From positions 1-64,000 of the forward strand of contig JACRNB010000005.1 of assembly GCA_016219425.1 (NCBI GenBank): a stretch of 64,000 bases of DNA, read 5' to 3'. The notes beneath the pieces were generated by a model. The model searched no databases, was not told where the DNA came from, and saw only the letters and a program-made list of their open reading frames with translations. Below are positions 10,489 to 25,722 of this stretch, piece by piece. Numbering within the stretch: the stretch's first letter is position 1; each line of letters opens with the position of its first letter. The position numbers and the translations under genes were made by a program. The stretch is from Betaproteobacteria bacterium (lineage in GTDB: Bacteria > Pseudomonadota > Gammaproteobacteria > Burkholderiales > Thiobacillaceae).

Positions 10489-12306
10489 TCATTCGTGCTC
10501 TACCGTACTGCCGACGGAGCGAAACAGGGTTTCCAATTGCCCCAGCATGTCATCAGGTTTTTTTGCATAGCGATGGCAAAAGGCCCGGCGTGCAGATTGC
10601 ACGGCCTCGCTTTTCCACCAGCCTTCCACATCGTCCCAGATGCGCGCCATCTGCCGCGCGGCGTCTTCCGGTGTTTCATGGAAAACGCCGACTGCCTTTA
10701 ATTGTTCGAAATAGGGTTTCGCGTCCTCGCGCAATTCCCAATGTGCGGGGTTCCAGAAAATGATCGTGGGAAAATCAAGCGTCAATGATTCCAAATACGT
10801 CGTTGCGTTGTAGGTGCTGATGTATATCCGGGTTTTCTGAAGTAGGGCGGACATTGGCTGCCTGCCATCATCCAGTGCGAGTTGGGGGAAGTGCTGACGC
10901 CAGCGTTCCGCTTGCTGATGCCCGTAATCCTGCGAGTAGAGCCGCACCAGAACCCCCGCCCGCAAGGCATCGGGGAGGGCATCAATAAATCGGCGCTGAT
11001 CCTCGAAATAGGCCTGCCACTGGCCCGCAGCGACCGGAACGCTGTACATGTGGTAGCTGTAGCGCGGAAAGGCGTTTTCCACGATGAGAGCCACGCCTCT
11101 GGGGTCCGGCGTGATATACCGGTCAAAATCCTTGAAATTGCCAACGGGCGTCACCTTTTCCTGGCCGGCAGCCTCCCATCCCCAGGTAAGGAACCGGTCG
11201 CTGATGGCGATCTGGTGATCTTCGTTGAAGTTCCACAGCGCCATACCGTAGTTGCCGCCGTGCTGACCAATAAACAGCGAAGACCCGCAGGATTCAACCC
11301 GCGTCGCTGCCCAGGCTTTGAATACCTCATCGGAATTCCAGGAATTACTGTCGAAAATGGCCTTGGGGCGCTTGGGCCATGGCAAGCTTTCCGCGGTGGA
11401 AACAAGCTTCCCATACCCTTCCAGGTAAACGGTGGGAATATGTCTTGGAATCATTATGCCCAGTAGCGCCACGAAGTCATCCGCCGCTACGGGGTGGGGG
11501 GGCATGCCGGATATGGCTAGGTGCCAATTGCGTGCATCAGGATCAACTTTGGCCAATGGCGCAGGGGCAGATCCCCAAAGCTTCGGAACTTGTCCAAGTC
11601 GAAGTTGAAGAAAAATATCTGAGCGCTGGCCAAGGTAGGTGGAAATAAAGAAGTGCTCATCGGGGCGTGAAAAAACCCCCAATACCCGACTGAGCAAAGC
11701 TCCAATTTTTCTTCTTGTGGAAATGGAGGGGGGGGCTGGGCTTAATTCTTCCTGTTTTGTCTGGGCAGGTATCCGCTCAACCGGAATGTCCATCCATTCC
11801 AGAATTTGCCCGCAGATCAATTCGTTCCAATTGTCCCCAGTGAATAAATGTCCCTGGTGCCTCGGATGAGGGTAGGTCCAGTCGGTCATGTCATTCGGAA
11901 CCAGTTCGCCGGGGTTGCGGTCAATGATGCGCGCGCCGGAAATTTCATAACTGTTGATCGCTACCCGCAGCATAAACCAGCGATCAAAAAGCATTTGAAT
12001 AAAATAGCCTAACCAGGGGCCGGCTAAAATGCGCCAATAGCGTAAGGAGTAGTGCATTCCATGCGACTGATTAAGCTGATCTGCAAGTGCGCGCAGCGAA
12101 GACTCATATGCCTTTTGCAGATATAAATAATCCCGACACAGCTTGTCCCGGTCATCCCAATGATAAGGGGCGACCGTCGCGTCAAGCCCAGCCCATTTTG
12201 ACTGTCGGTTAAACAGTCGGCACCACTCGCCCAGAAATAGAACGGGAGCGTCATTCTCTGGCCAGGTTTCTTCTAGCGCCGTCGTAACGAGGGCGCGACT
12301 TACCAC
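10489..12306 (-). CDS. LIC12162-family putative transferase
   Basis: A 605-residue protein that I recognise as the LIC12162 family, from its N-terminus (LVTTALEETWP, then VLFLGEWCRLF) and the later lines EGYGKLVSTAESLPWP and TYNATTYLESLTLDFPTIIFWNP. The family occurs in lipopolysaccharide and other surface glycan loci and is annotated as a putative transferase; its C-terminal part looks like a GT-B-type fold. No activity is established to my knowledge. The GTG start at 12306 overlaps the SDR stop, and the C-terminus lies 10 bases from the dehydrogenase start. It may transfer the unusual acidic sugar made by this operon. Confidence 0.75.
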   Translation of the reverse strand: MVSRALVTTALEETWPENDAPVLFLGEWCRLFNRQSKWAGLDATVAPYHWDDRDKLCRDYLYLQKAYESSLRALADQLNQSHGMHYSLRYWRILAGPWLGYFIQMLFDRWFMLRVAINSYEISGARIIDRNPGELVPNDMTDWTYPHPRHQGHLFTGDNWNELICGQILEWMDIPVERIPAQTKQEELSPAPPSISTRRKIGALLSRVLGVFSRPDEHFFISTYLGQRSDIFLQLRLGQVPKLWGSAPAPLAKVDPDARNWHLAISGMPPHPVAADDFVALLGIMIPRHIPTVYLEGYGKLVSTAESLPWPKRPKAIFDSNSWNSDEVFKAWAATRVESCGSSLFIGQHGGNYGMALWNFNEDHQIAISDRFLTWGWEAAGQEKVTPVGNFKDFDRYITPDPRGVALIVENAFPRYSYHMYSVPVAAGQWQAYFEDQRRFIDALPDALRAGVLVRLYSQDYGHQQAERWRQHFPQLALDDGRQPMSALLQKTRIYISTYNATTYLESLTLDFPTIIFWNPAHWELREDAKPYFEQLKAVGVFHETPEDAARQMARIWDDVEGWWKSEAVQSARRAFCHRYAKKPDDMLGQLETLFRSVGSTVEHE

Positions 12307-13139
12307 GCGCTACGTCCTCCATCCATCACCACGTTCTGCCCATTCATGTAGGCGGAGGCGTCCGAGCACAGGAACAGCACGGCGGCGCGGTATTCATCCC
12401 GGGTCGCCATGCGTCCTTGGGGGATCAGGCTGGTCAGGCGACGTACAAAGGCCTCGCCCTGCCCGTTGAATATCCCGCCGGGCGAGAGCGCATTGCAGCG
12501 CACTCCTTGGTCCGCCCAATAGGTGGACAGATATCGGGTCAGACCGATCAGGCCCGCCTTGATGACGGAGTAGGTCACGGGTTTGACCGGTTGCATGTCC
12601 TCGGGCAGACCCTCCTTGCGATACAGCCGCTGGTCCGGCGCGAAAACCGAAAGATCGGAGGCGATGTTGAGGATGACGCCGCCCTTCCCGTCACGCGCCA
12701 TGGCGGCGCCAAAGACCTGGCTGCACAGGAATGCGCCGGTCAGGCCCACGCCAATCTGCAAATCCCATTGCTCCAGCGGGAAATGTTCCAGGCGGGAAGT
12801 TTCCACCACCCCCTGTTCCCCCTTGACCTTGGGGTCGATCGCCGCATTGTTGACCAGGATGTCGATGCGCATCCCGCGCAAGTGGAGTTCCAGGGCAACT
12901 TGTTGCACCGCCTCGGGCTTGGAGACGTCGAGCAGAAAGACATGGATTCGCTCGCTCCGTCCGGGACCGCCCAAGGATTGCCTGGCCCGTTCCAGCCCGT
13001 CCTGGCTGACATCCGTCAGCACCACTTGCGCGCCGCTTTCCAGCAAGGCCGCGGCATGTTCCATCCCCAGCAGGCCTGCCGCCCCCGTGATCAAGGCGGT
13101 CTTGCCGTGCAGATCAAATTTTTCAAATGCTGATGCCAT
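12300..13139 (-). CDS. Short-chain dehydrogenase/reductase (SDR)
   Basis: A 279-residue classical SDR. The cofactor motif is ITGAAGLLGMEHA near residue 17, NNAAID lies near 97, and the active site is YSVIKAG near 178 with a preceding serine in NIASDLS. An insertion near 155 (YRKEGLPEDMQPVKP) sits between the catalytic Ser and Tyr. ATG at 13139 is preferred over TTG at 13145. The gene is paired with a second SDR immediately upstream and a TIM-barrel isomerase, so it probably oxidises or reduces a sugar intermediate. The exact substrate is unknown. Confidence 0.85.
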   Translation of the reverse strand: MASAFEKFDLHGKTALITGAAGLLGMEHAAALLESGAQVVLTDVSQDGLERARQSLGGPGRSERIHVFLLDVSKPEAVQQVALELHLRGMRIDILVNNAAIDPKVKGEQGVVETSRLEHFPLEQWDLQIGVGLTGAFLCSQVFGAAMARDGKGGVILNIASDLSVFAPDQRLYRKEGLPEDMQPVKPVTYSVIKAGLIGLTRYLSTYWADQGVRCNALSPGGIFNGQGEAFVRRLTSLIPQGRMATRDEYRAAVLFLCSDASAYMNGQNVVMDGGRSAW

Positions 13140-13160
13140 GTTCAAACCTGTAAGAAGTGT

Positions 13161-13922
13161 TCACGAACGTGTCTGTCCGCCGTCCAGGACGTACACGCCG
13201 CCGGTGGCGAATGATGATTTTGACGAGGCCAGCCAAGCCACCCATTCCGCGACCTGGGCCGGGCTCCCGAGCGCGGCCAGCGAGACCTCGCGTTCAAGCA
13301 TCGCCGTCACGGCGGATGGATCCTGCGCCTGCTTCCTGGCCCACACAGAGCCGTCGAACAGGATGTTACCGGGCGCGATTGCGTTGATGCGCACGCCTCG
13401 TTTTCCCAGAGGGCGCGCAATGCCCCGTACATAGGCATTGAGCGCCGCTTTGGCCGCTGAGTAGGTCACTGGAGCGCCTGGCACGACTTCCACGCCGCAG
13501 ATCGACGACACGCAGACGATAGCGCCCCGTGTCTGCGCCAGCGCCTCCGAGGCGGCCTCGACCATGTTGGTGGCGCTCCACAGGTTGAGCGCGAACACGC
13601 GCTGCCATTCGTCGTGGGTCTCCTGCCCTGGCGGTACGGAGGAACCACTGCCCACGTTGCAGATCAGGATATCGAGTCGACCCCAGGCCTGGAGCGCCTG
13701 ATCCACCACGCGCCGGGCGTCGTCCGGGCGGGAGGCGTCCCCCGCGATCCGCAGCACCGGCTCCCCGCCCAAGGCTTCCGCAGCTTGGTCCAGCGCAACG
13801 GCATTGCGCCCATTGATGGCGACCTTGCAGCCCTGGCGCAGAAGCAATTCGGCGATGGCCAGCCCGATCCCTTTGGAGGAACCGGTGACCAGTGCTGTCT
13901 TGCCCGACAGGTCAAGCTGCAT
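13161..13922 (-). CDS. Short-chain dehydrogenase/reductase (SDR), second copy
   Basis: A 253-residue classical SDR with VTGSSKGIGLAIAE near residue 12, CNVGSGSS near 88, catalytic Ser in VSSICG near 137 and YSAAKAALN near 152. It resembles 3-oxoacyl-ACP reductase-like sugar dehydrogenases. It shares the operon with the other SDR but differs in sequence, so the two likely act at different steps, for example successive oxidation and reduction around an epimerisation. It overlaps the TIM-barrel isomerase gene by 11 bases. Confidence 0.85.
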   Translation of the reverse strand: MQLDLSGKTALVTGSSKGIGLAIAELLLRQGCKVAINGRNAVALDQAAEALGGEPVLRIAGDASRPDDARRVVDQALQAWGRLDILICNVGSGSSVPPGQETHDEWQRVFALNLWSATNMVEAASEALAQTRGAIVCVSSICGVEVVPGAPVTYSAAKAALNAYVRGIARPLGKRGVRINAIAPGNILFDGSVWARKQAQDPSAVTAMLEREVSLAALGSPAQVAEWVAWLASSKSSFATGGVYVLDGGQTRS

Positions 13923-14760
13923 GGGCGCGATGCCGGTCTATCCAGCCTTCAATCAACTGCCGGTATTGAGTCAGCGCGCCGGCATGGTCGCCGTCGCCGG
14001 CGCGCGCGGTCTGCATGATGTAGTTGCCCGCGTAGCCGGCCTTCGCCAGCGCCGAAAAGACGGTATCGAAATCGGCGTTCCCCGTCCCCAGTGGCACGGT
14101 CGTACCGCCCAGAAGACGATCCTTGACGTGGACATTGACGATGCGTTCGCCATAGGCCGCGAATTCCTCGGCGGGATCAAAGCCCAATGCGGCGCTGTTG
14201 CCGATGTCGTAATTGATGCCGAACCAATCCGCCGGCAGTCGGGCGATGAACCGCGCCAGTTCAGCCGGGGAATAATCGGACTCGAAGATTACTTCCAGGC
14301 CGTGCTGCGTAAGAAACGGTCGCTGTTCCAGCAGGAAAGAAACCAGGAGGTCTTCCTGTTCGGGGGTATCCAGGCGTCCGTTGTCCACCAATGGCACGAC
14401 CATCATGCGGATACCCGCCTGCGCGCAGGCGCGGCCAATGGCAAGAAAATCACGCTGCAAATCGGCGCACGCCTGGCCATTGGCCTTCCAGAAAGGCGCC
14501 TGCATGAAGCAGTCTCCCGTCAGGGAAGGAATAGCAAAGCCATGTTGCCGGCAGAGGCCGCGAATCTCTTCCTGCCCGGACGGGGTCATCAGGGGGTTCT
14601 CGTAGAGACGCTCCTGATCCAGCGTCCACTCCATGCGGTTCAGGCCGATCTTGGCGGCTGCGGGGAATTCCGCCCTCCAGTCATCCCAGGGGAAGGCCTG
14701 AATGCGTCCGTTGACCAAGGGCGACAAGCGCCCCTGCATGAATCCGATCTTGTACGTCAT
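13912..14760 (-). CDS. Sugar phosphate isomerase/epimerase, xylose isomerase-like TIM barrel
   Basis: A 282-residue AP-endonuclease-2-like TIM barrel: FMQGRLSPLVNGRIQAFP near residue 7, FESDYSPAELARFI near 173, GINYDIGNSAALG near 194 and NVHVKDRL near 221. The acidic and histidine residues of these strands are the expected metal ligands. Proteins of this group isomerise or epimerise sugars or sugar acids. The start at 14760 is fixed by an ATGA overlap with the aminotransferase stop; the longer frame to 14955 is read-through. It is related in fold to the C-terminal domain of the NeuB fusion at 17084-18976. Confidence 0.85.
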   Translation of the reverse strand: MTYKIGFMQGRLSPLVNGRIQAFPWDDWRAEFPAAAKIGLNRMEWTLDQERLYENPLMTPSGQEEIRGLCRQHGFAIPSLTGDCFMQAPFWKANGQACADLQRDFLAIGRACAQAGIRMMVVPLVDNGRLDTPEQEDLLVSFLLEQRPFLTQHGLEVIFESDYSPAELARFIARLPADWFGINYDIGNSAALGFDPAEEFAAYGERIVNVHVKDRLLGGTTVPLGTGNADFDTVFSALAKAGYAGNYIMQTARAGDGDHAGALTQYRQLIEGWIDRHRAHAA

Positions 14761-15734
14761 TTGCTTTTGAACCGGTAAGGGGTGGGGGCGTCGCCGGACG
14801 CGGTGACGGTCCGGGCCGCATCCCAACCCTGGATCTGGCCCACGATGTCGATGCCGGTATTGGCGCTCCATTGCCCGATCAGATGATTGAATCCTGGCCC
14901 GACCATGCCCGCGCCTATGGGATTTCCATTCAGAGAGGTGACCGGAAGCATGCAAAACGGGGTGCCGGTCATGAATGCTTCATCCGCCGTGTAAATGTCA
15001 TACGCCTCGATATTCTTTTCTACCATGGGCATGCCGAGTTGAGGGCACAGTTCATGCATGACGTAATCACGGGAGATGCCGCGCAGTATGTTGCGCCCCT
15101 CCGGGGTGATCACCACGCCGTCCTTGATGATGAAGAAATTGTCCCCGGTGCCTTCGGCCACAAAACCATCCGGGTCGAGCAGCAGGGCCCAGTTGTTGTC
15201 CCCTTCGATCTGGCCCGCTTCGATATTGGCCATCAGGTAATGGATGCGGCTCCGGTTCTTGATCTTGGGGTCCAGCAGATGCCCAGGAATGGCGCGCTGC
15301 GAGGTGATCACCGCGTTGATGCCCTGATCGAACAAAGCGCCCATGGTCGCCACCGTCCAACGCAGGGGAAAGTCGGCAATGATCACGTTCGGACCCTTGT
15401 GCAGCCCCTCAATACCTTGATAGATGCCAAGCAGACCGCGCGAGACGTCGATCATCAGACGATGCTCGTCGTCCTCGGCAAACAGATGGTCATTGGCCTC
15501 CATGGTCTGATAGCAGGCGCGTTCCATCTCTTCCGGCGTCATCTTCAGAGGGATGCGCAGCACCTTGACCCCTGCGTACAGCCGATCAATATGCTCACGC
15601 AATTTGAACTGTTTCTTGTTGAACGAGCGGGTCATCTCAAACACCATGTCGCCGAACATCAGGGCGGAATCGTAAATCGAGATCTTGGCTTCCGTTTCTG
15701 GAACCAGTTGCCCGTTGAAATAAACCGTGCGCAT
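14757..15734 (-). CDS. PLP-dependent class IV aminotransferase
   Basis: A 325-residue fold-type IV aminotransferase related to branched-chain and D-amino-acid aminotransferases. The N-terminus YFNGQLVPETEAKISIYDSA is typical, the lysine for PLP is likely in DPKIKNRSRIHYL near residue 160, and EGTGDNFFIIKDG near 195 and EAFMTGTP near 254 match the cofactor and substrate loops. Class IV aminotransferases in a nucleotide-sugar operon are unusual, since sugar amination is normally done by the DegT/DnrJ (fold type I) family. It may aminate a keto-sugar acid or supply an amino-acid substituent. Confidence 0.85.
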   Translation of the reverse strand: MRTVYFNGQLVPETEAKISIYDSALMFGDMVFEMTRSFNKKQFKLREHIDRLYAGVKVLRIPLKMTPEEMERACYQTMEANDHLFAEDDEHRLMIDVSRGLLGIYQGIEGLHKGPNVIIADFPLRWTVATMGALFDQGINAVITSQRAIPGHLLDPKIKNRSRIHYLMANIEAGQIEGDNNWALLLDPDGFVAEGTGDNFFIIKDGVVITPEGRNILRGISRDYVMHELCPQLGMPMVEKNIEAYDIYTADEAFMTGTPFCMLPVTSLNGNPIGAGMVGPGFNHLIGQWSANTGIDIVGQIQGWDAARTVTASGDAPTPYRFKSK

Positions 15735-15747
15735 ATTTTTCAGCCCA

Positions 15748-16491
15748 TCAAGATTGGAGTTTCAGAAACACTTCGTCGTACCAACGAATCGTGTCGGTAA
15801 TATGAAAATCAGGATTTCTGGGATACAGATATTCATACAACTGCCGCAAGAAATCGTACTGCTCCGGTGTATTTACATCCAGAACCAGATCCGGGCGGCG
15901 GAATGCGGCGGGGCACTTCAAGGTGCTGATCGGACACCACTGTTCATCCACGCTCTTGCCCGTAGCGTAATCGTAAAAGTTCAGGTGGACATGTTCCCTT
16001 TGCCGGGGGTCGTCATGCCGCTCCCTGGCTTCCGCGAGCAGCGAGAAATCAAACATCTCTGCGCCGATGCCATCCGGGTAGCCCGAGTCGGCGATCTGGG
16101 CGAGATTCGAAGAGAAACCGCGTCGCCCCAGCGCGAGATGATGTTCGACGATGCGGTCGATCTCGGAGGGCTCGGGCGTCGCGTTATCCGCCGGCAGCCT
16201 GCCGACGATATCCGCGCCGGACCAAAGCGCCGCCTGATAGTACCGCTCGACCAGATCGTTCTCGGAACCGGCAAAGACCTTCACGCCGTAGCGCTCGCCC
16301 AGTCCTTGCAGCACCCGATCCTTCTCCGTATCGGGAATCGCCAGGACGATGTCATCCAGTTTTGTGCACCGTTTAACCCGTTCCAGGATACGCCCGACCA
16401 AGGGCGCCCCAGCCAGGTCCATCATGGATTTTCCCGGCAGCCGGGACGACCCCATGCGGGCCTGGATGATGAGCACCACTTGCTTTGTCAT
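15748..16491 (-). CDS. SpsF/NeuA-like cytidylyltransferase
   Basis: A 247-residue nucleotidyltransferase with the N-terminal loop VVLIIQARMGSSRLPGKSM near residue 5, VFAGSENDLVERYYQAA near 72 and VGRLPADNA near 91, the pattern of SpsF-type proteins. SpsF-like enzymes are placed with the CMP-sugar synthetases and often accompany NeuB-like synthases. The ATG at 16491 overlaps the SIS stop (ATGA). With the NeuB fusion a few genes upstream it probably activates the resulting ulosonic acid with CTP. The substrate is inferred. Confidence 0.8.
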   Translation of the reverse strand: MTKQVVLIIQARMGSSRLPGKSMMDLAGAPLVGRILERVKRCTKLDDIVLAIPDTEKDRVLQGLGERYGVKVFAGSENDLVERYYQAALWSGADIVGRLPADNATPEPSEIDRIVEHHLALGRRGFSSNLAQIADSGYPDGIGAEMFDFSLLAEARERHDDPRQREHVHLNFYDYATGKSVDEQWCPISTLKCPAAFRRPDLVLDVNTPEQYDFLRQLYEYLYPRNPDFHITDTIRWYDEVFLKLQS

Positions 16492-17087
16492 GCCAGCTCT
16501 CCCCTGAAATACATGTCTTCCACCAACCCGCACACGATATGCCCCACCAGGATATGGCTTTCCTGGATTCGAGCCGTATCCGACGAGGGGATGCACAGGC
16601 ATTCGCAGCGCGGTTGCAACTTGCCGCCTTCCGCCCCCGTGAGGGCGACGACGCGGATGCTCAGACCGTTCGCGGCCTCCACGGCGGCCAGGATGTTCGG
16701 ACTGTTTCCGCTGGTGGAGATGGGAACGAAGACGTCACCGGGCTTGGCAAGCGCCCTGAGTTCCCGCGCAAACACCTGTTCATATCCGTAATCGTTGCCG
16801 ATGGCGCTGAGGGCGGAGTTGTTGACGCCCAGCGCCACGGAGGGCAGTGGCGCGCGGTCGAACTGAAAGCGCGAGATGAACTCGGCGGAGAGATGCTGTG
16901 CGTCGGCAAAGCTGCCGCCATTGCCGGCGAAGATGATCTTCCCGCCGGATCGCAAGGCGGAAACGCAGGAGGCTACGAGCGATTCGATCTGGGCAAGGAG
17001 GCGTGCATCGTCCAGGATCGCCTGCTTGACCGCGATGGACGCCTCAATGCGGGAGCGAATCCCGGAGGCTAGCGAACCCCCGTTCAC
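16488..17087 (-). CDS. gmhA: SIS-domain phosphoheptose isomerase, GmhA-like
   Basis: A 199-residue SIS protein with FAGNGGSFADAQHLSAEF near residue 50 and STSGNSPN near 120, matching sedoheptulose 7-phosphate isomerase. Conserved GmhA-type residues such as the late His in SHILVGHIVC are present. The start is taken as GTG at 17087 because it overlaps the NeuB-fusion stop (GTGA); an ATG-started frame to 17183 would overlap far into that gene. Kinase, phosphatase and nucleotidyltransferase of the same heptose pathway lie upstream, so the heptose assignment is better supported here than for the SIS gene at 2103. Confidence 0.82.
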   Translation of the reverse strand: MNGGSLASGIRSRIEASIAVKQAILDDARLLAQIESLVASCVSALRSGGKIIFAGNGGSFADAQHLSAEFISRFQFDRAPLPSVALGVNNSALSAIGNDYGYEQVFARELRALAKPGDVFVPISTSGNSPNILAAVEAANGLSIRVVALTGAEGGKLQPRCECLCIPSSDTARIQESHILVGHIVCGLVEDMYFRGELA

Positions 17088-18976
17088 AGGGTTCCCTCTA
17101 ACCGCTCCAGGGCGACCCAGAATCCTTCGCCGCCGTTCTTGTGTCCTTGCCATATCTCGGGAATGAAGGTGGCGGCGGGGCATCCCCGGTGCAGGATGGC
17201 GCCCAGACGAGCAAAGTCGATATCCCCGTCTCCAACCTGCAAGCCTTCGCCATTCAGCCCCTTGGCGTCGCCCAGATGCAGATGGGCGCTGAAGGGGGCG
17301 ATCTTGGTGCTGAACTCGTAAAAATCGTGGTTGAAATGATTACAGGTCAGGCGGCTGTGCGAGATATCGAAACACATGCGCAATTTGAGCCTGTCGCACC
17401 ATTCGACGATCTCGTCGATCTGCACGAACAGGTTCTGATAGCGCTGACCGCCGAAATGCCAGGGGAAGGGGGCCATGGTCTGAGGAATCAGTTCCACGCC
17501 TTCCATATCCAGTTCTTGCAGGCTTTGTGCGAAGCGTTCGTAATAGCCTCGAATCGCCGACGCGGGCAGGGGCTGATCCATGGTGAAGCCGCCGATGTTG
17601 GCCACGATCTGCGGCCTTTGCGTCTTGGGGAAATAGCGTTTCATGGCGCGAGTAATGTCGATGACGCGCTGCGTTTCACGAATCGATTCGTTGCGATAGG
17701 CGTCATCCGGCGTGGCCAGGTCCATCAGCCGGCTGCCGGCGAACAACTCGGGCGCATGCACCACGAAGTCTTCGCTATAGGGGCCGTCCAGGTAGTCCGC
17801 CAGGGCGAGGTCCATGTCGGAATAGGAAAGATGGAACTCCCACAGGTCAGGCTTTATCCGCGCGGCGTATTCCCGGAAATCGTGATATCGGACGGGAACT
17901 CCCCAGGGGCGCGTGAACCGGTAGGCGCGCGGCTCTATGCGGTCGTCGCGCAGATCGGAGGGGTAAAAGAAGTCCTCCTCGCCCATATCGTGTTGCAGGG
18001 TGCGGCCAAGCAGTTCTTCGTAACGCTGGGGGGACAGACCCTGCCCCGGACTGCGCACCTTGATGTGGTCGGGGCCGAGTCGCACGCCCTTGGCGAGGGG
18101 GCGGGCGGCCACCAGACTCTTGCCCAGGTTTTCGCGGTTGATCATCTCGCCTTGCGAGAGCTGACGCACCTGCCCCGACCCCAGCGCCTGTTCGATTTCA
18201 CGAATGCCCTCAACCATGCGGGCGAATTCGGGCTGCGTCAGGCTGGCGGCGTGGTCCGGGCCTTCCATGTTGCGATCCAGCGTGAAATGCCGCTCGATGA
18301 CGCATGCGTTCAGCGCTACCGCCGCCAAGGAAACATGAATGCCGCGTTCATGGCCGGAGTAGCCGACCAGCGGATGGATCTGCCGAAGCGAGTGCATCCA
18401 CCTGAGATGGATGTCGTGCAACGGGGCGGGATAGGTGCTGTTGCAATGGAGCAGCGCAAATTGCACGCCACGCTGGTTGAGGAACGCTGCCGTGGTTTTC
18501 ACCTCTTCGGTCGTACTCATGCCGGTGGACAGGATCAACGGCTTCCCGGTTTGCGCCAGCCGATCCAGCAGCGGCAGGTTGGTGAGATCAGCGGACGCCA
18601 CCTTGTAGGCCGGCACGCCCATGCCTTCCAGGATCTCGACGCTCTTGCCGTCCCACGGGGTACACAGATAGGGGATGCCGGTTTGCGCGCAGTACGCGGA
18701 CAGGCGGCGGTGCTCATCCACGCTCAGTTCAAAACGATTCAGCAGGTCGATGACGTATTCCGTGCCCAGGTCTTCGCCGCCTTTGCGCAGGCTGCGCTGA
18801 CGATAGACCTCGTCCAGATGGCGCATCTGAAACTTGGCGCAGTCGGCCCCCGCTGTACGGGCGCGATCCACCATCTCGATGGCGCGCTCAAAACTGCCGT
18901 TGTGGTTGTTGCCGATTTCGGCGATGACATAGATACGTCCAGCGCCGATGTCGTGATTACCGATTCTGATGTTCAT
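17084..18976 (-). CDS. NeuB-type ulosonic acid synthase fused to SAF and TIM-barrel isomerase domains
   Basis: A 630-residue protein with three parts. Residues 1-275 are a NeuB-type PEP-condensing barrel (VIAEIGNNHNGSFERA near 17, STGMSTTEEV near 150, LLHCNSTYPAP near 172, metal-ligand histidines in GYSGHERG and IERHFTLDR). Residues 290-350 are an antifreeze-like SAF domain (RPLAKGVRL, then GQGLSPQRYEELLGR). The remaining 270 residues form an AP-endonuclease-2/xylose isomerase-like barrel with CFDISHSRL, HLHLGDAKGLNGEG and FIPEIWQGHKNGGEGF. NeuB proteins are normally about 340-350 residues, so the C-terminal domain is an addition. The fusion suggests that isomerisation and condensation are coupled. 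ATG at 18976 overlaps the kinase stop. Confidence 0.85.
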   Translation of the reverse strand: MNIRIGNHDIGAGRIYVIAEIGNNHNGSFERAIEMVDRARTAGADCAKFQMRHLDEVYRQRSLRKGGEDLGTEYVIDLLNRFELSVDEHRRLSAYCAQTGIPYLCTPWDGKSVEILEGMGVPAYKVASADLTNLPLLDRLAQTGKPLILSTGMSTTEEVKTTAAFLNQRGVQFALLHCNSTYPAPLHDIHLRWMHSLRQIHPLVGYSGHERGIHVSLAAVALNACVIERHFTLDRNMEGPDHAASLTQPEFARMVEGIREIEQALGSGQVRQLSQGEMINRENLGKSLVAARPLAKGVRLGPDHIKVRSPGQGLSPQRYEELLGRTLQHDMGEEDFFYPSDLRDDRIEPRAYRFTRPWGVPVRYHDFREYAARIKPDLWEFHLSYSDMDLALADYLDGPYSEDFVVHAPELFAGSRLMDLATPDDAYRNESIRETQRVIDITRAMKRYFPKTQRPQIVANIGGFTMDQPLPASAIRGYYERFAQSLQELDMEGVELIPQTMAPFPWHFGGQRYQNLFVQIDEIVEWCDRLKLRMCFDISHSRLTCNHFNHDFYEFSTKIAPFSAHLHLGDAKGLNGEGLQVGDGDIDFARLGAILHRGCPAATFIPEIWQGHKNGGEGFWVALERLEGTL

Positions 18977-20364
18977 GCGGTCTCGATTTCCATGTGATTT
19001 CTGCATTCGCGCACGGTCCACGCGCGCAGGCCATCCTGCTCGAAGCGGAAAGGCCGCACCTTAAGACCGCTTCGTTCCAGATGTATGATCAGTTCATGCT
19101 TGAGAAAGGGCGGCACGTAGAAAAGGAAGAAGCCGCCACCGCCGGCGCCCAGCAGTTTGCCGCCGATAGCGCCATGGGCGCGCGCGCTTTCGTAGATTTG
19201 GTCCAGCCGGGCGGAGCTGATCTTTTCGCTGAGCTGGCGCTTGATCTGCCAGGCCTTGTCCAGCGCCTGGCCGAACTGCAACAGCCTGCCGCGCAGCAAG
19301 TCGTTGCGCATGTGGTAACAAAGCTCGACATTGTTCTCCACCTGCTCGCGCACCTTGGCCGCCACCATCATCTGGCGCTGATCCTGGTGGATATCACCTG
19401 AATCGTGGGTCGTTCCGGTATCGCACAGAATCAGGCTTTCTTCCAGTTCCAGCAGGGTATCGGGGTGGATGCGCAACGGATGGACGATGTTCTGATCCAT
19501 GCGGAATTCCATGAAATTAAAACCGCCGAATACCGTGGCGTACTGATCTTGCCAGCCACCGGCCACACCCAGATATAGGCGCTCGGCCTGATAGGCGATC
19601 TCGGCCAACTCGTGCGGATCCCACTGGTCGCGGCGGAATTGGTTGAAGCAGCCCAGCACCGCCGCCGACACGACCGCCGACCCGCCCAGGCCGGAGTTCA
19701 TCGGAAAGTCGGAATGCAGGAACAGTTCAAAGCCGAAATCCGGATTGACGGCTCTGAGCAGGGCCTGAATCAGACCGAATCGGCCCGGTTGCTTCAGTGC
19801 GGCGGACAGGTCATTAGCATCCAGGGTCTCCCCCAGATCGAGCGATCGGATGATGACCCGTGCATCGTCGCGCAAGCGTAGCGTGGCGTGGCTATAGAGC
19901 GAGATGGTGGTGTTGATGACCGCACCGCCCTCCCGCCCGGAAAAGTAGTGCGTCACGTCTGAGCCGCCGCCGCCAAAGCTGATGCGCACAGGCGCACGGG
20001 CGCGCGCGTATACGGCCATCTCGGCCTGCACAGGCATGTGGTCGCGGCTCACCAACCCCACCAGGCGTCGCGCCGCATCAAGCAGCGGGATCACGCGGAT
20101 GCGATGGTCGAGCTTTTTGAGCAAGAGTTCGCGCGGAGTGGCCGGTCCCTCCCAGACGAAATCAGCGTTCGCACAGAGGGCGATCGCATCATCAAGGGCG
20201 CCGCCTTCCAGCAGACGCCGACGGATATCGCCATCCGTAACCAAGCCGATCACGGCGCCATGCGGCTCGGTCACGAAGATCACACCATGGTGATTGGTCT
20301 CGATACGCCACAACGCCTCGCGCAGGGAATCGTTTTCGGCAATGAGAAAGCTGTCTAGCTGCAT
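18973..20364 (-). CDS. CBS-pair fused to GHMP sugar kinase (heptose 7-phosphate kinase-like)
   Basis: About 463 residues. The first 115 form a CBS pair (VIGLVTDGDIRRRLLEGG near 47, VGLVSRD near 105). The rest is a GHMP kinase with ARAPVRISFGGGGSDVTHYF near 120, the ATP loop SGLGGSAVVSAA near 220 and KLLGAGGGGFFLFYV near 400, like D-glycero-D-manno-heptose 7-phosphate kinase HddA. Such kinases are usually about 340 residues and lack CBS domains. The CBS pair is of the type normally attached to sugar nucleotidyltransferases, and a CBS-less nucleotidyltransferase lies immediately upstream, so a domain swap is possible. A short ATG at 20364 is preferred over a frame starting at 20400. Confidence 0.82.
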   Translation of the reverse strand: MQLDSFLIAENDSLREALWRIETNHHGVIFVTEPHGAVIGLVTDGDIRRRLLEGGALDDAIALCANADFVWEGPATPRELLLKKLDHRIRVIPLLDAARRLVGLVSRDHMPVQAEMAVYARARAPVRISFGGGGSDVTHYFSGREGGAVINTTISLYSHATLRLRDDARVIIRSLDLGETLDANDLSAALKQPGRFGLIQALLRAVNPDFGFELFLHSDFPMNSGLGGSAVVSAAVLGCFNQFRRDQWDPHELAEIAYQAERLYLGVAGGWQDQYATVFGGFNFMEFRMDQNIVHPLRIHPDTLLELEESLILCDTGTTHDSGDIHQDQRQMMVAAKVREQVENNVELCYHMRNDLLRGRLLQFGQALDKAWQIKRQLSEKISSARLDQIYESARAHGAIGGKLLGAGGGGFFLFYVPPFLKHELIIHLERSGLKVRPFRFEQDGLRAWTVRECRNHMEIETA

Positions 20365-21068
20365 AGTTGGCCTTGGCGTCCCGACTCTATCCAATGACAA
20401 AACCGGTAATAGTCCTCAGGAATGCCGATATCCATGAAATCCGTTTGCAGGGGAACCGCCTGCAGAACGGCTTGGCGCACGAGGGTGCAGAAAAGATCAC
20501 GCTCCAGCGAAAAGGGTCGTCCGTCCCAATCCGAAAACAACTCGGCATTCAAACGACACAGGCCGGCATTGATCCATCCCGGCTCGGGGTGCGTGTTTTT
20601 TTCAGCAAAGGCGGTCACCCGTGAGTCGCCGTCAAAATGAACCTGCCCGTAACGTTCGATGTTCGCCAGTCTTACGACTGCCATCGCCGGCGAGGCCTTC
20701 TGCGTTAATGCCATCACCCCGGTTCCCAACCAGGTATCTGCGTTGGTCAAGAGAAAATCGTTGGTCAGATTCAATTCCTTTACCGCATGCGCCACGGCGC
20801 CGCCCGTATCCATGGGCGTGGGCTCAATAACCCACTCGATTCGGCAATCCTTGAGCAATCCGGTTTGTTGCGACTGGAGATAGCCGATGATGTGCTCGGC
20901 TTGGTGATACAACAAAAATACGAATGACCGTATCCCCTGGGCAATCCAGTGCTCGATCTGCAAATGCAAAAAGGGCGTTGCGCCAACCGGCGCCAGGGCC
21001 TTGGGCACAGCCGCCACAGCCGTTTGCAGGCGGGTGCCGAATCCTCCGGCCAAAACCAGCATTCTCAT
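20355..21068 (-). CDS. Sugar-1-phosphate nucleotidyltransferase, HddC-like
   Basis: A 237-residue NTP transferase with the N-terminal loop LVLAGGFGTRLQTAVAAVPK near residue 4, LLTNADTWLG near 108 and the C-terminal DFMDIGIPEDYYRF. It resembles D-glycero-alpha-D-manno-heptose 1-phosphate guanylyltransferase (HddC/WcbM) and related mannose/glucose 1-phosphate transferases. The neighbours, a GHMP kinase and a GmhB-like phosphatase, supply the order 7-phosphate, 1,7-bisphosphate, 1-phosphate and GDP-sugar. ATG at 21068 overlaps the phosphatase stop (TGATG). The nucleotide used (GTP or CTP) cannot be read from sequence. Confidence 0.82.
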   Translation of the reverse strand: MRMLVLAGGFGTRLQTAVAAVPKALAPVGATPFLHLQIEHWIAQGIRSFVFLLYHQAEHIIGYLQSQQTGLLKDCRIEWVIEPTPMDTGGAVAHAVKELNLTNDFLLTNADTWLGTGVMALTQKASPAMAVVRLANIERYGQVHFDGDSRVTAFAEKNTHPEPGWINAGLCRLNAELFSDWDGRPFSLERDLFCTLVRQAVLQAVPLQTDFMDIGIPEDYYRFCHWIESGRQGQLCS

Positions 21069-21634
21069 CACGCCCTCAGCAACGGTTGGCCGCCACCCAG
21101 GAACGGCAACGCCTCGCGCAGGGCGGTGATGCTGTGATAAGCCACGCCATCCAGTTCAGGAGGGCGTTCCTGCGCGAAAAGAATGTTCACGCCGACATCT
21201 GCGGCAACGCCTGCCTGGATATCACTTGCCTTGTCGCCAATCAGGATGGAATTCGGCAGGTCCAGATCAAGCTCCTGCGCGGCCTGCACAATCATTCCGG
21301 GTTGTGGTTTACGGGAGAAATCCTCCTTTTTATATCGCCCTATCCCTGCAGTCGGATGAAAGGGGGAAAAATACACTCTATCAATTGGCGCCCCAGCTTC
21401 GGCAAAGACCCCGCACATCCAGTCGGACAAGCGATGAAAATCCTCTTCACTGTAATAACCGCGCCCTATACCCGCCTGATTGGTAATCACCACGATCTTG
21501 TACCCCAGGCCATAAGCCTGACGCGCCACATCAAAAACGCCGTCAATGAAATCAAAGTTCTCGATCTTGTGCACATAGCCATGATTGAAGTTGATCACCC
21601 CGTCCCGATCGAGAAAAACGGCGCGCTGCGGCAT
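21068..21634 (-). CDS. HAD-IIIA phosphatase, GmhB-like, with a cysteine-poor zinc loop
   Basis: A 188-residue HAD phosphatase: FLDRDGVINFNHGYV near residue 7 (nucleophile and acid/base Asp), VITNQAGIGRGYY near 49, and SRKPQPGM then ILIGDKASDIQAG for the later motifs. It matches D,D-heptose 1,7-bisphosphate 7-phosphatase, but the region that in canonical GmhB binds zinc through CPHHP and CxC reads SPFHP and KKEDFSRKP, so those cysteines are lost. It would remove the 7-phosphate before nucleotidyl transfer. It overlaps both neighbours by a few bases. Confidence 0.82.
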   Translation of the reverse strand: MPQRAVFLDRDGVINFNHGYVHKIENFDFIDGVFDVARQAYGLGYKIVVITNQAGIGRGYYSEEDFHRLSDWMCGVFAEAGAPIDRVYFSPFHPTAGIGRYKKEDFSRKPQPGMIVQAAQELDLDLPNSILIGDKASDIQAGVAADVGVNILFAQERPPELDGVAYHSITALREALPFLGGGQPLLRA

Positions 21635-22503
21635 CAATCGGCGGCTTCCAGATACGCGATCAAGGTATCGCTCCTGCCCACCGCAGCCAGGGCATCCGCG
21701 TACGCATTGACCAGGTCCGGACTATCCAGAAACGACCACTGCTGATGACCGCCCGGTTTGCCTCGGGAAAGCCAATGCAGGTGATTCGAAAGCGGGTAAC
21801 GTTGATAGTGCCGGATTGCGGTAACACGCAGACCCGCCTGGCGCGCCAGAGTTTCCAGCGTCGCTGTATTGAACAAAAACAGATGCTGGCTCCAGTAAGT
21901 AAAACGCTGGAATGCATCGCAGTCATACAAGGTCAGTAGGGCATCTTCAGAGCTAGGCACTTCAATAATCATGCGCCCCTGTGGTGCCAGCAGGCCAGCA
22001 AGCTCGGCCAACATGGCGCGCGGATCAGGGAGATGTTCAATGACATGAAAGGCGGTAATCAGATCATATCCCCTGCCTGCGGTCCCGATGCTTGGGTATA
22101 TCTTGAGCCTGCCCGCCCAGTGATCGTGAACACGAGACTCCAGCTCAATGCCCGCGACTTCGCCGGCCAATGGCTGGGCTTTTTGCAGGAAGCCCCCCGC
22201 ACCACAGCCAAAATCGAGAAGTTTCTTGTTGGGCAGCATCGTCTTGACCATCTCCAATCGACGCTGGTCATCCCATTCGGTTTCTCTCAACCACACTGCC
22301 ATTGGTGTGGGTTCCATTCCATGCATGCCGGAATTTTCATAAAAACCAGGTTGGATGTGACCGATGCTGCCGAGGGTCACAAGTCCGCAGTTTTTGCATT
22401 GCAATATCTGCATTCCGGACGCATCACGGACTTCGCCTTTACGCGGCGTGAAAAAATTTGAGTGACAAATATAGCAATGCATGGGGCTGACCAACTTGTT
22501 CAT
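21634..22503 (-). CDS. Class I SAM methyltransferase with N-terminal zinc ribbon
   Basis: A 289-residue methyltransferase. Cys pairs CYICHS near residue 9 and CKNCGL near 36 form a zinc ribbon, followed by the SAM site KLLDFGCGAGGFLQKA near 93 and ITAFHVIEHLPDP near 148. It shares its architecture, but little detailed sequence, with the methyltransferase at 4417. Enzymes like this methylate sugars in polysaccharide clusters. Its stop overlaps the GmhB-like start and its start is 18 bases from the end of the AT-rich gene, marking the right edge of the tightly packed operon block. Confidence 0.85.
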   Translation of the reverse strand: MNKLVSPMHCYICHSNFFTPRKGEVRDASGMQILQCKNCGLVTLGSIGHIQPGFYENSGMHGMEPTPMAVWLRETEWDDQRRLEMVKTMLPNKKLLDFGCGAGGFLQKAQPLAGEVAGIELESRVHDHWAGRLKIYPSIGTAGRGYDLITAFHVIEHLPDPRAMLAELAGLLAPQGRMIIEVPSSEDALLTLYDCDAFQRFTYWSQHLFLFNTATLETLARQAGLRVTAIRHYQRYPLSNHLHWLSRGKPGGHQQWSFLDSPDLVNAYADALAAVGRSDTLIAYLEAAD

Positions 22504-23913: not shown

Positions 23914-23974
23914 CGCTCATTTGCGTCGGTTCGTTGAAAAGCTCACTGAAAACATCGGGTTATTCGAGGTGCCC
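23914..23974. repeat. 61-base repeat copy A, overlapping the 3' end of pseI
   Basis: Positions 23914-23974 align without gaps to 31026-31086, with 48 of 61 bases identical by hand count, both ending in a GGGTTATTCGAGGTGCCC-like core. The repeat covers the last codons of pseI, so the PseI tail after FENQPQ (GTSNNPMFSVSFSTNRRK) is encoded by it. The shared core also matches the terminal repeats of the transposase remnant at 30571-31002. The likeliest reading is the end of an insertion sequence left behind at this junction. Confidence 0.6.
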
Positions 23975-25026
23975 TGGGGTTGGTTTTCGAATAATTCCCA
24001 CTTGGTTGCATTCCCCCTGCTCACCGCGACTTTCAGTCGCCGTCCCACGATCTGGTCGAAATATTTTGGCGGGAGTCCCATCCCAGGGCGAATACGCCGG
24101 ATATCTTTTGCTTCTACTACTGTACCCGCGGGGAGATCCCGCACGAAATACACGGAGCGTCGGAATGTTTTCATCGCTGCTTCGGCGGGTTGTCGCTCAT
24201 AACTTGCCCGACCCAAGGCACTCCAGGCGTCGCGGGTGTCGGTGCAGAGCCGGGTGAGTTCCGCTGGCTCCAGGGAAAATTCGCTATCCGGGCCTTTGTC
24301 TGCACGACTTAGGGTGAAGTGCTTTTCTATCAGGCAGGCACCCAGCGCCACCGCCGCAATGGATGCAGTGGCGCCCATGGTGTGGTCTGACAGACCTGGT
24401 GTGGCTCCGAAACGTCGTGCGAGTTCGGGCATCTGGCGCAGATTGGCCTGTTCCATTGGGGCTGGGTAGCTGCTGATGCAGTGGAGCAGAACCAAATCTT
24501 TGCAACCGGCTTCTCGCGCTGCGGTCACGGCCTCTTCAATTTCCATTTCATTGGCCATGCCGGTGGACATGATCATCGGTTTGCCGGTGCTGGCTGCGTA
24601 ACGGATCAGGGGAAGATCCAGCATTTCGAAGGAGGCGATTTTGTAGGCAGGGGCGTGGATGCTTTCCAGTAGATCCACCGCCGATTCGTCGAAGGGGGTG
24701 GAGAACACGGTAATGCCGCGTTTGCGGGCGTGTTCGAACATGGCCTGATGCCATTCAAAGGGCGTCTGCGCCCATTGGTACAGGTCGTAGAGCTTGAAAC
24801 CATCCCACAGGCCGCCCTGGATCACGAAGTCGGGCGCATCGCAGTCGATGGTCATGGTGTCTGCGGTATAGGTTTGCAACTTGACGGCGTCTGCACCGCA
24901 ATGCATCGCTGCGTCGATGGTCTCCAGCGCTCTTTCCAGCGAACCGTTATGGTTGGCGGATAACTCGGCAAGGATGTAGGGCGGATGGTCGGGGCCGATG
25001 GGGCGTCCGTTAATGGAAATGGTCAT
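23917..25026 (-). CDS. pseI: Pseudaminic acid synthase PseI
   Basis: A 369-residue NeuB-family enzyme that condenses PEP with 6-deoxy-AltdiNAc to form pseudaminic acid. Features are YILAELSANHNGSLERA near residue 17, VKLQTYTADTMTID near 47, STGMANEMEI near 147, LLHCISSYPAP near 172, metal histidines in GLSDHTMG and IEKHFTLSR, and a SAF domain near 290-350 (RDLPAGTVVEAKDIR). The TYTADTMT segment is characteristic of PseI rather than NeuB. The last 18 residues come from the repeat at 23914-23974 and are probably a non-native tail. It follows the PIG-L gene by 15 bases. Confidence 0.92.
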   Translation of the reverse strand: MTISINGRPIGPDHPPYILAELSANHNGSLERALETIDAAMHCGADAVKLQTYTADTMTIDCDAPDFVIQGGLWDGFKLYDLYQWAQTPFEWHQAMFEHARKRGITVFSTPFDESAVDLLESIHAPAYKIASFEMLDLPLIRYAASTGKPMIMSTGMANEMEIEEAVTAAREAGCKDLVLLHCISSYPAPMEQANLRQMPELARRFGATPGLSDHTMGATASIAAVALGACLIEKHFTLSRADKGPDSEFSLEPAELTRLCTDTRDAWSALGRASYERQPAEAAMKTFRRSVYFVRDLPAGTVVEAKDIRRIRPGMGLPPKYFDQIVGRRLKVAVSRGNATKWELFENQPQGTSNNPMFSVSFSTNRRK

Positions 25027-25041
25027 GTTCGTTTTGATCGG

Positions 25042-25713
25042 TTATCGGATGAGGCGGATGGAGATGAACGATTCTGCCGCCTCCACGCCCACGGAATATC
25101 CGCGATGCCGAGCCAGGTGTTCGACGTGTTCGATGCTGCGCGAATGGGGGGCGGATCGCATCTCACTCTGGTAAGCCCGCAGGGCGCTGAGTTTGATCGA
25201 GAGGAAGTCGCTGATGTCGACGAAAACATTCGGCGCGAAAGGTTCCTGCTGCGGGGTGGCCCATTCGGTACTGGAAAGTACTTCGAAGCCGTAAATTTCG
25301 CGCACGGGGCTGCCAGGGAGGGGACGGCAGGCGGTCATGACGGCCTGATGGGTGATGCGATGGTCGATGTTGAGATCGCCATGGTGATGGGTGTAGATCA
25401 CCTGGGGCGCGAGGGGCTCAATGGCTGCCTCCAGGGCTTGCACCACATCCAGCAGAGGTAGGCTGTCCATTCGGTTGTCGGGCAGACCCAGATACTGCAC
25501 CCGTCGCAGTCCCAGTATTTCGTGGGCCTGCCTTGCCGCCGCCATGCGGCGATCCATGTCTTCCGGGGTTGTATCCGGACGCGAACTGACGCCATCGGCC
25601 ATGAATACCGCATGCACGGCATCCCCTGCAGCGACGTGGCGCGCAATGGCGCCGCCGCATCCCAGGGCTTCGTCATCGGTATGGGCGGCGATGATGAGAA
25701 CGGTTTGATTCAT
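25042..25713 (-). CDS. PIG-L/LmbE-family deacetylase
   Basis: A 223-residue zinc hydrolase with the signature IIAAHTDDEALGCGG near residue 7 (AHxDDE) and the second ligand region IYTHHHGDLNIDHR near 109. Family members remove N-acetyl groups from GlcNAc-type sugars. Between the formyltransferase and pseI in a pseudaminic acid locus, it could free an amine on a pseudaminic acid derivative or its precursor so that a formyl or acetimidoyl group can be attached; that order is inference. It lies 9 bases from the formyltransferase stop. Confidence 0.85.
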   Translation of the reverse strand: MNQTVLIIAAHTDDEALGCGGAIARHVAAGDAVHAVFMADGVSSRPDTTPEDMDRRMAAARQAHEILGLRRVQYLGLPDNRMDSLPLLDVVQALEAAIEPLAPQVIYTHHHGDLNIDHRITHQAVMTACRPLPGSPVREIYGFEVLSSTEWATPQQEPFAPNVFVDISDFLSIKLSALRAYQSEMRSAPHSRSIEHVEHLARHRGYSVGVEAAESFISIRLIR

Positions 25714-25722
25714 GTCTGGCCG

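Follow-up and report, generated by a model that had tools for sequence, protein, structure and literature searches.

The fusion gene and its operon

We analysed a 64,000-nucleotide stretch of DNA (the window) in which one minus-strand gene encodes a NeuB-type sialic acid synthase, complete with its SAF domain, joined to a second, isomerase-like barrel. The genes of the operon, the domains of the fusion and a pseudaminic acid synthase gene nearby are as follows.

12300..13145, minus: SDR oxidoreductase 1 (PF13561, E 2.9e-41)
13161..13922, minus: SDR oxidoreductase 2 (homologues at fusion loci)
13912..14757, minus: separate UlaE-like isomerase/epimerase barrel (PF01261, E 3.3e-25)
14757..15734, minus: class IV aminotransferase (PF01063, E 2.3e-44)
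15748..16491, minus: CMP-sugar (KdsB/NeuA-like) cytidylyltransferase (PF02348, E 7.6e-21)
16488..17087, minus: GmhA-like sugar-phosphate isomerase (TIGR00441, E 3.3e-49, below cut-off)
17084..18976, minus: NeuB-SAF-isomerase barrel fusion, 630 aa (ATG at 18976, stop at 17084)
17087..17929, minus: C-terminal xylose-isomerase-like barrel of the fusion, residues 350-630 (PF01261; metal-type residues Q499, D537, H540, H567, E607)
17948..18118, minus: SAF/antifreeze-like domain of the fusion, residues 287-343 (PF08666, E 1.2e-10, 42.2 bits)
18170..18874, minus: NeuB TIM barrel of the fusion, residues 35-269 (PF03102, E 4.2e-83, 278.9 bits)
18973..20400, minus: CBS domain and HddA-like GHMP kinase (Pfam/NCBIfam; stop overlaps the fusion's ATG by 4 bases, ATGA)
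20355..21071, minus: HddC-like nucleotidyltransferase (PF00483; NF049965, E 4.2e-36, below cut-off)
21068..21637, minus: GmhB-like HAD phosphatase (TIGR00213, 187.3 bits, above the cut-off of 149.6)
23917-25026: PseI (TIGR03586 passed, 512 bits)

A sequence-only reading had described the 630-residue product as a complete NeuB barrel and SAF domain followed by a TIM-barrel isomerase-type domain, and both halves of that description are borne out. PF03102 and the SAF model each exceed their cut-offs, which places the protein in the NeuB superfamily, and AP_endonuc_2 (PF01261) matches residues 403-611 (E 7.1e-18; 65.6 bits, cut-off 31.1). AlphaFold predicts eight barrel strands for the last 281 residues (pLDDT 90.7), so that the C-terminal domain belongs to the xylose-isomerase-like TIM barrel class by fold as well as by profile. 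The model of the full-length protein has a pLDDT of 92.2 and a pTM of 0.76, the latter making the relative placement of the two halves less sure.

All four enzyme types of the GDP-D-glycero-D-manno-heptose pathway (GmhA, HddA, GmhB and HddC) occur in the operon, which differs from that pathway in the N-terminal CBS domain of the kinase and in the presence of the NeuB fusion and a CMP-transferase. The heptose assignment is only at family level, since the GmhA-, HddA- and HddC-like proteins miss the NCBIfam equivalog cut-offs (166.9 against 209.45, 235.7 against 600 and 124.7 against 300 bits, respectively). The GmhB-like protein passes TIGR00213 but falls below the stricter PRK08942 (161.1 against 178) and NF050049 (152.2 against 250). 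The GmhA-like gene has a candidate GTG start with a 4-base overlap with the fusion's stop. The same genome has a separate gmhA adjoining an hldE-type gene, and the GmhA of the operon is therefore an extra copy. The second, separate TIM-barrel gene that had been reported in the operon is the UlaE-like one; it keeps E159, D184 and H210, with a fourth ligand that is mostly Gln249. A normal PseI is also present nearby, at a distance of about 5 kb rather than the 6 kb first given.

Distribution and phylogeny

The fusion is a real protein family. The C-terminal barrel and NeuB share one open reading frame at 88 of the 88 loci examined, which, together with the single intact frame in the window, argues against a chance joining. 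These loci are partly non-independent, in that 26 are from Bradyrhizobium or Bradyrhizobiaceae and three viral loci look alike. In a careful tree, built from 58 of the 101 rows of a quick tree after long-branch rows such as L016 had been dropped, the computed phylogeny groups the fused NeuBs as a single clade (support 100/99). Among 60 relatives besides the source genome no match extended past query residue 362, so that no fusion was found in close relatives. A further 368 genomes of the class yielded three with the fusion.

Our searches of the open-licence PubMed Central literature found no characterised member of the family and no experiment on it. Among the papers listed, no title or abstract start concerned a NeuB-barrel fusion or a deculosonic acid, and passage searches of PMC13214540, PMC7371886 and PMC7591256 gave nothing on such a fusion. 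Thus, within these searches, the family is not one already characterised, and its C-terminal region has both a TIM-barrel match and a conserved, if altered, metal site.

The NeuB half

Judging from its residues, the synthase half apparently retains PEP-condensing activity. Counterparts of Glu25, Gln55, Lys129, His215 and Glu234, which form the PEP and metal site, are kept in the alignment. Like NeuB/SiaC of Neisseria meningitidis (1XUU, 4IPI), the protein has a NeuB barrel followed by a SAF domain (residues 3-326, E 3.6e-54 to 4IPI), but it carries an additional 281-residue barrel and differs by Arg314 to Ser, F112 to W, D214 to G and T216 to E. PMC6795526 lists the active-site residues of this model enzyme and describes Arg314 as contacting the acceptor and helping to position the N-acetyl group of ManNAc. 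The counterpart in the window protein, within the SAF domain, is Ser309. Across the family, 87 of 89 fused proteins have Ser at this position, whereas all 30 unfused proteins that align there have Arg (2 of the 32 unfused are gapped). The replacement suggests that the acceptor sugar is probably one without an N-acyl group. The window protein also scores below the models for N-acetylneuraminate synthase (TIGR03569, 336.8 bits against a cut-off of 399.65) and pseudaminic acid synthase (TIGR03586, 238.3 against 340.25), as does the fused protein of locus L096, these two being the members scored.

The C-terminal barrel

The best fold match to the barrel model is 3wqo, the D-tagatose-3-epimerase-like MJ1311 (Z 23.8), with the L-ketose-3-epimerase of T. 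maritima at Z 23.2; over the ketose 3-epimerases MJ1311, UlaE (3CQJ) and D-tagatose 3-epimerase the common fold is matched at Z 21.7 to 23.8. Ketose 3-epimerases have four metal ligands, Glu-Asp-His-Glu, and both Glu are bases. The fused barrel, which unlike them has a NeuB attached, shares the Asp, His and second Glu of this set but replaces the first Glu by Gln499 in 88 of 89 sequences (the 88 loci and the window). The motifs with apparent metal ligands put forward earlier map to D537/H540, H567 and E607, which are invariant in 89/89. W609, Q610 and H612 are equally invariant, and in total 15 polar residues of the C-terminal domain (among them R363, H382, H407, D570 and E577 in addition to the polar residues just named) are the same in all 89 sequences, even where identity to the domain in the window falls to 26%. 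The barrel residues are alike in both clades of the family, triple fusions included. The structure alignments comprised 50 sequences (A5) and 46 sequences (A6).

A barrel that had lost catalysis altogether and served as a substrate-binding or assembly domain would account for the Gln at the first ligand, but it would not be expected to hold so many polar residues at such divergence, and we consider it very unlikely. The same Gln makes a two-base epimerase less likely, and this raises another way to view the domain, namely that its substrate is an activated sugar, either GDP-heptose or heptose 1-phosphate, which it releases or hydrolyses to give the free acceptor. It would then replace the hydrolysing epimerases NeuC/LegG and would not isomerise the sugar. 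Bacterial NeuB enzymes with a SAF domain use free sugars, the operon is apparently able to make activated heptose, and the barrel family meets the phosphodiesterase endonuclease IV in a profile match (1xp3, E 0.0035) that covers part of the chain only. Endonuclease IV, however, has a nine-residue, three-zinc site, and that set appears to be only partly present in the barrel; the best structural matches remain the ketose 3-epimerases, and no such supply genes adjoin the triple fusions. Release of an activated sugar is thus improbable, though less so than a dead barrel.

Conservation of the neighbourhood

The operon, with its kinase, GmhA, CMP-transferase and isomerase/SDR module, is conserved across phyla. 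We counted neighbours (homologues at coverage of at least 60% and identity of at least 30%) at full-flank loci, defined by 7 kb or more of sequence to either side. Of the 88 loci, 34 outside Bradyrhizobium and 25 within it qualify. In 61/88 loci the fusion is preceded, at a distance of no more than 150 bases, by a full-length kinase homologue, and one is found in 28 of the 34 non-Bradyrhizobium full-flank loci, the six without it being triple-fusion loci; a looser count of 31/34 includes three triple-fusion loci with a partial match to the query. GmhA occurs in 23 of these 34 loci, SDR 1 in 26 and SDR 2 in 20, and both SDRs occur in 25/25 Bradyrhizobium loci. Around 20 unfused NeuB genes of relatives, by contrast, neither kinase nor GmhA was found (0/20 each). 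The aminotransferase slot is taken elsewhere by a class III or DegT aminotransferase or by GFO/MocA or SDR genes. This slot and the surroundings of the triple fusions were surveyed in 63 of the 88 loci, with 23 near-identical Bradyrhizobium loci and 2 viral ones left out.

Kinase, barrel and SDRs are all found at 25/25 full-flank Bradyrhizobium loci, for which reason we weighed a link to bradyrhizose, a ten-carbon sugar of the Bradyrhizobium O-antigen, and rejected it. GmhA is missing from all of these loci (25/25), and the genomes themselves offer only weak matches to it (33-35% identity in 3/4, none in 1/4).

The triple fusions have a CMP-transferase as their only neighbour, or none. Three of their genomes were scanned, and in two (L095 and L096) a convincing GmhA or HddA homologue is missing, with GmhA absent from one and reduced in the other to a match of 23% identity at E 1.3e-4. 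The acceptor in these two genomes is therefore not a GmhA-made heptose. Such loci fit an alternative in which the product is a neutral, KDN-type C9 acid: a common ketose (phosphate) would be turned by the barrel into mannose (phosphate), NeuB would condense this with PEP, and the heptose genes would have no other role than to provide GDP-heptose for the glycan that contains the acid. The likeness of the barrel residues in both clades agrees with this, and loss of the Arg314 counterpart is compatible with any neutral acceptor. Against it, the fusion gene is overlapped on one side by the kinase gene and on the other by GmhA, neither of which was seen near the 20 unfused genes. An origin of the operon arrangement by insertion of the kinase between the CBS and NeuB parts of a triple fusion is not favoured by CBS identities, since the CBS domains of the kinases are about as close to those of triple fusions (mean identity 31.6%) as to their counterparts in nucleotidyltransferases (29.3%).

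Short NeuBs without a SAF domain

Two genomes of the same genus (L122, L123) have no fusion. They carry the same CMP-transferase-to-SDR module as the window, together with GmhA, a KDN-9-phosphate-phosphatase-like HAD and a short, SAF-less NeuB. In the stretches read in these genomes an HddA-like kinase was not seen, and the one nucleotidyltransferase seen is distant, at 25% identity. Their enzyme types are those of the KDN-9-phosphate/Kdo route (isomerase, PEP condensation, HAD phosphatase and CMP-transferase), except that the isomerase is GmhA-like; where they have the short NeuB and a KdsC-like phosphatase, the window operon has the kinase and the fusion.

All eight short NeuBs (8/8) share R52, W108 and G208 with the fused NeuB. 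A KdsC/KDN-9-phosphatase-like HAD adjoins six of the eight, four of those six without GmhA; four of the eight are accompanied by a CMP-transferase with a KdsC-like phosphatase domain but not by GmhA; and beyond the two same-genus genomes a GmhA-like gene was seen in 0/6 regions read. Four short NeuBs thus share part of the fused signature without GmhA, and a mannose-derived acid of the KDN type fits them equally. GmhA accompanies the short NeuB in L122 and L123, where no kinase was seen, which counts against that alternative. Taken together with the triple fusions, a KDN-type product is possible, if doubtful.

A proposed pathway

The sequence-only reading held that the fusion couples isomerisation or epimerisation of a sugar with PEP condensation to give an unusual ulosonic acid. 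Such an acid is likely, given the strictly kept polar residues of the barrel, the apparently active synthase and the CMP-transferase of the operon; isomerisation by the barrel we carry over as a proposal only, one base/ligand Glu being Gln. The architecture, the single clade, the kept and changed residues and the operon are computed; for the acceptor, the barrel's reaction, the product and the order of steps we infer the following. In the NeuB-SAF half, PEP would be condensed with the aldehyde group of a sugar that bears no N-acyl group at C2. The fused metal barrel would belong to this pathway too, and its most likely task is to make or epimerise the open-chain acceptor that the NeuB site uses. 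In the window clade the acceptor would probably derive from D-glycero-D-manno-heptose by way of the flanking GmhA/HddA/GmhB/HddC-like enzymes, making the product a 3-deoxy-dec-2-ulosonic acid (C7 + C3). The neighbouring CMP-transferase would activate this acid, and the aminotransferase, the UlaE-like barrel and the two SDRs may alter one keto position before its transfer to a surface glycan. Weighing against a heptose acceptor, there is no known step to the free sugar if the heptose genes lead to GDP-heptose. A bifunctional ulosonic-acid synthase with a neutral acceptor, and in the window clade a heptose converted to a C10 acid, is the reading we prefer, tentatively and at somewhat less than an even chance. 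Its wider form is unlikely: that many phyla make CMP-activated, ten-carbon 3-deoxy-dec-2-ulosonic acids from heptose and PEP, with the fusion as a committed step that brings its own acceptor-preparing isomerase, and with the short SAF-less NeuB, GmhA and KdsC-like phosphatase of the same genus using a phosphorylated route to an identical end product.

Bacterial contacts with hosts and phages are shaped by nonulosonic acids, a class of surface sugars, and the acid that a genome makes is predicted from its enzyme types. The fused type is widespread, one genome collection containing at least 547 related places. With the two members scored falling below the Neu5Ac and Pse synthase cut-offs and the N-acetyl-contacting residue lost, this type is probably the mark of an acid not yet described, either neutral or derived from heptose, which the label "sialic acid synthase" would hide.

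Domain architecture and distribution of the fusion

The open reading frame at 17084–18976 encodes 630 residues, which the sequence-only reading had described as a NeuB barrel and SAF domain followed by a C-terminal TIM-barrel isomerase domain. That description proved accurate, with three Pfam domains above cut-off and an eight-strand barrel in the model.

Fusion protein and its domains (all three domains above Pfam cut-off)
17084–18976, minus strand: fusion gene
residues 35–269: NeuB barrel
residues 287–343: SAF domain
residues 403–611 (Pfam match): AP_endonuc_2/xylose-isomerase-like barrel

AlphaFold predicted eight barrel strands in the last 281 residues (pLDDT 90.7). The full-length model has a pLDDT of 92.2 and a pTM of 0.76, which makes it less certain how the two halves sit relative to each other. 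Comparing the two parts separately with solved structures, we found N. meningitidis SiaC/NeuB closest to the N-terminal part (E 3.6e-54), and MJ1311, which its entry names as uncharacterised (3wqo, Z 23.8), together with ketose 3-epimerases closest to the C-terminal part; no characterised fusion appeared among these structures or in the open-licence PubMed Central literature searched.

A profile of the C-terminal domain matched at least 547 relatives in genome_contigs, the best 80 of which were taken further, and gave four matches in viral contigs. Barrel and NeuB shared one open reading frame in 88 of 88 loci examined (L014–L101), counting two (L056 and L092) where part of NeuB is missing at a contig end; these loci are partly non-independent, 26 being Bradyrhizobium or Bradyrhizobiaceae, and the search patterns were subfamily-specific, such that unfused distant cousins would escape. 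Fused NeuBs formed a single clade (support 100/99) in a tree of 29 fused sequences, 21 ordinary NeuBs and 8 short SAF-less NeuBs, alongside which a quick tree was run. By record title, carriers among the matches listed include Proteobacteria, Bacteroidota, Chlorobium, cyanobacteria, Mycobacterium and a Thalassobacillus. In 60 relatives of the window's own genome no match extended beyond residue 362 of the fusion, and 4 of 369 genomes of the class, its own included, matched the C-terminal domain. Horizontal spread of the fusion is therefore likely. Four IMG/VR contigs (L098–L101) also encode it, with barrel identity of about 43%, and may represent phages or mislabelled bacterial contigs.

Active sites of the two halves

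Aligned to N. meningitidis NeuB, the fusion retains the counterparts of Glu25, Gln55, Lys129, His215 and Glu234. According to PMC6795526, Arg314 of the SAF domain touches ManNAc and may position its N-acetyl group and hence the aldehyde; the Ala mutant is inactive and the Lys mutant active. We compared 89 fused proteins with 32 unfused NeuBs from relatives and from the fusion loci themselves, Pse-type included. At the Arg314 position the window's protein and most other fused ones have Ser (87 of 89 in total), versus Arg in all 30 aligned unfused ones (the other two are gapped). Position 208 is Gly in 88/89 versus Asp in 32/32, position 210 Glu in 88/89 versus Thr or Ser in 32/32, and position 52 Arg in 87/89 (two gaps) versus none of 32. 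The NeuB half is thus probably active with an altered acceptor, and the loss of Arg314 suggests one without an N-acyl group.

In the fused barrel, D537, H540, H567 and E607 are invariant (89/89), and Q499 (88/89) occupies the place of an MJ1311 Glu kept only in L015. The operon's separate barrel (13912–14757) has UlaE as its nearest relative (E 5.3e-24); across 65 sequences its E159, D184 and H210 never vary, whereas the fourth ligand, which pairs with E607 in a profile alignment, is Gln in 59 of them and Glu in the other 6. The Glu-to-Gln changes are complementary, affecting the first ligand in the fused barrel (17087–17929) and the fourth in the separate one. In ketose 3-epimerases two glutamates serve as metal ligands and bases. 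Since each operon barrel has Gln at one of these, neither looks like a plain two-base epimerase; each has the look of an active metal enzyme whose chemistry has been modified.

Operon context and the acceptor

Operon, from high to low coordinates
GmhB-like
HddC-like
CBS plus HddA-like kinase
fusion (four-base overlaps with both neighbours)
GmhA-like
CMP-transferase
class IV aminotransferase
UlaE-like barrel (AP2)
SDR2
SDR1

This order recurs across phyla with a variable aminotransferase slot, which may hold class III aminotransferase, glyoxalase and methyltransferase, or an SDR, GFO/MocA or DegT gene; from this exchange we infer a single keto intermediate, either aminated or reduced.

Neighbours at ≥60% coverage and ≥30% identity (kinase: matches of ≥250 residues that extend into the kinase part; looser counts were also made), near 34 non-Bradyrhizobium fusion loci with ≥7 kb each side; 25 Bradyrhizobium fusion loci; 20 unfused NeuB genes of relatives
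Full-length kinase: 28; 25; 0
SDR1: 26; 25; 4
GmhA: 23; 0; 0
HddC: 22; 10; 0
SDR2: 20; 25; 3
AP2: 18; 25; 2
GmhB: 10; 9; 0

The window's HddA-, HddC- and GmhA-like proteins all score under NCBIfam cut-offs. Its gmhA is an extra copy, since another in the same genome adjoins an hldE-type gene (named from sequence). Most likely the fusion is a bifunctional enzyme that makes a neutral ulosonic acid so far undescribed, and on the boldest reading its product would be a heptose-derived C10 acid.

The main rival is a KDN-type C9 acid. The six loci lacking the kinase, among the 34, are all six triple fusions in that set. Triple fusions (L014, L017, L091, L094–L097) add a CBS-like part to NeuB, SAF and barrel, and have neither heptose kinase nor GmhA alongside; a CMP-transferase lies immediately upstream in L017, L094, L095 and L096. 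The Dulcicalothrix genome (L095) gave no GmhA match, that of Thalassobacillus (L096) a single one at 23% identity (E 1.3e-4), and neither a convincing HddA. Thus, heptose cannot be the acceptor in every fusion unless it is made otherwise. A Crocosphaera genome (L091) has adjacent HddA-like and HddC-like genes, with GmhA elsewhere, and four Bradyrhizobium genomes have a weak HddC-like gene (33–36%) about 9–25 kb from the kinase on the same contig, three of them also weak GmhA-like matches. The Crocosphaera triple fusions (L091, L097) stand alone amid unrelated genes, with no CMP-transferase alongside.

Short NeuBs and the adjoining cluster

In two genomes of the same genus (L122, L123), a short SAF-less NeuB without the barrel precedes the same downstream module as in fusion operons (CMP-transferase, class III aminotransferase, glyoxalase, methyltransferase, AP2, SDR2, SDR1). 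Between GmhA (206 bits in L122, cut-off 209) and this NeuB lies a HAD gene.

HAD genes
L122, 15013–15576: nearest KDN-9-phosphate phosphatase (E 3.6e-20, under cut-off)
L123, 14968–15528: 80% identical to the L122 HAD

The order resembles the Kdo route (isomerase, PEP condensation, phosphatase, CMP-transferase) but starts with a heptose isomerase. One possibility, on these two cases from one genus, is a heptose-derived ulosonic acid reached by a phosphorylated route. No GmhA-like gene was seen in six other short-NeuB regions, four of which (L156–L159) carry a KdsC-like phosphatase domain inside the CMP-transferase reading frame (25–33% identity to the L122 HAD). The acceptors of short NeuBs thus appear to be phosphorylated, though not in every case a heptose. 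All eight share R52, W108 and G208 with fused NeuB, and four share E210.

A pseudaminic acid cluster adjoins the operon (23917–30521, minus strand), and its PseI passes TIGR03586. PseI is followed by genes named from sequence as LmbE-type deacetylase, formyltransferase, PseG-acetyltransferase fusion (26400–27956), HisF/HisH-like and amidotransferase-like; the pseudaminic acid made by this cluster may be formylated or amidinated.
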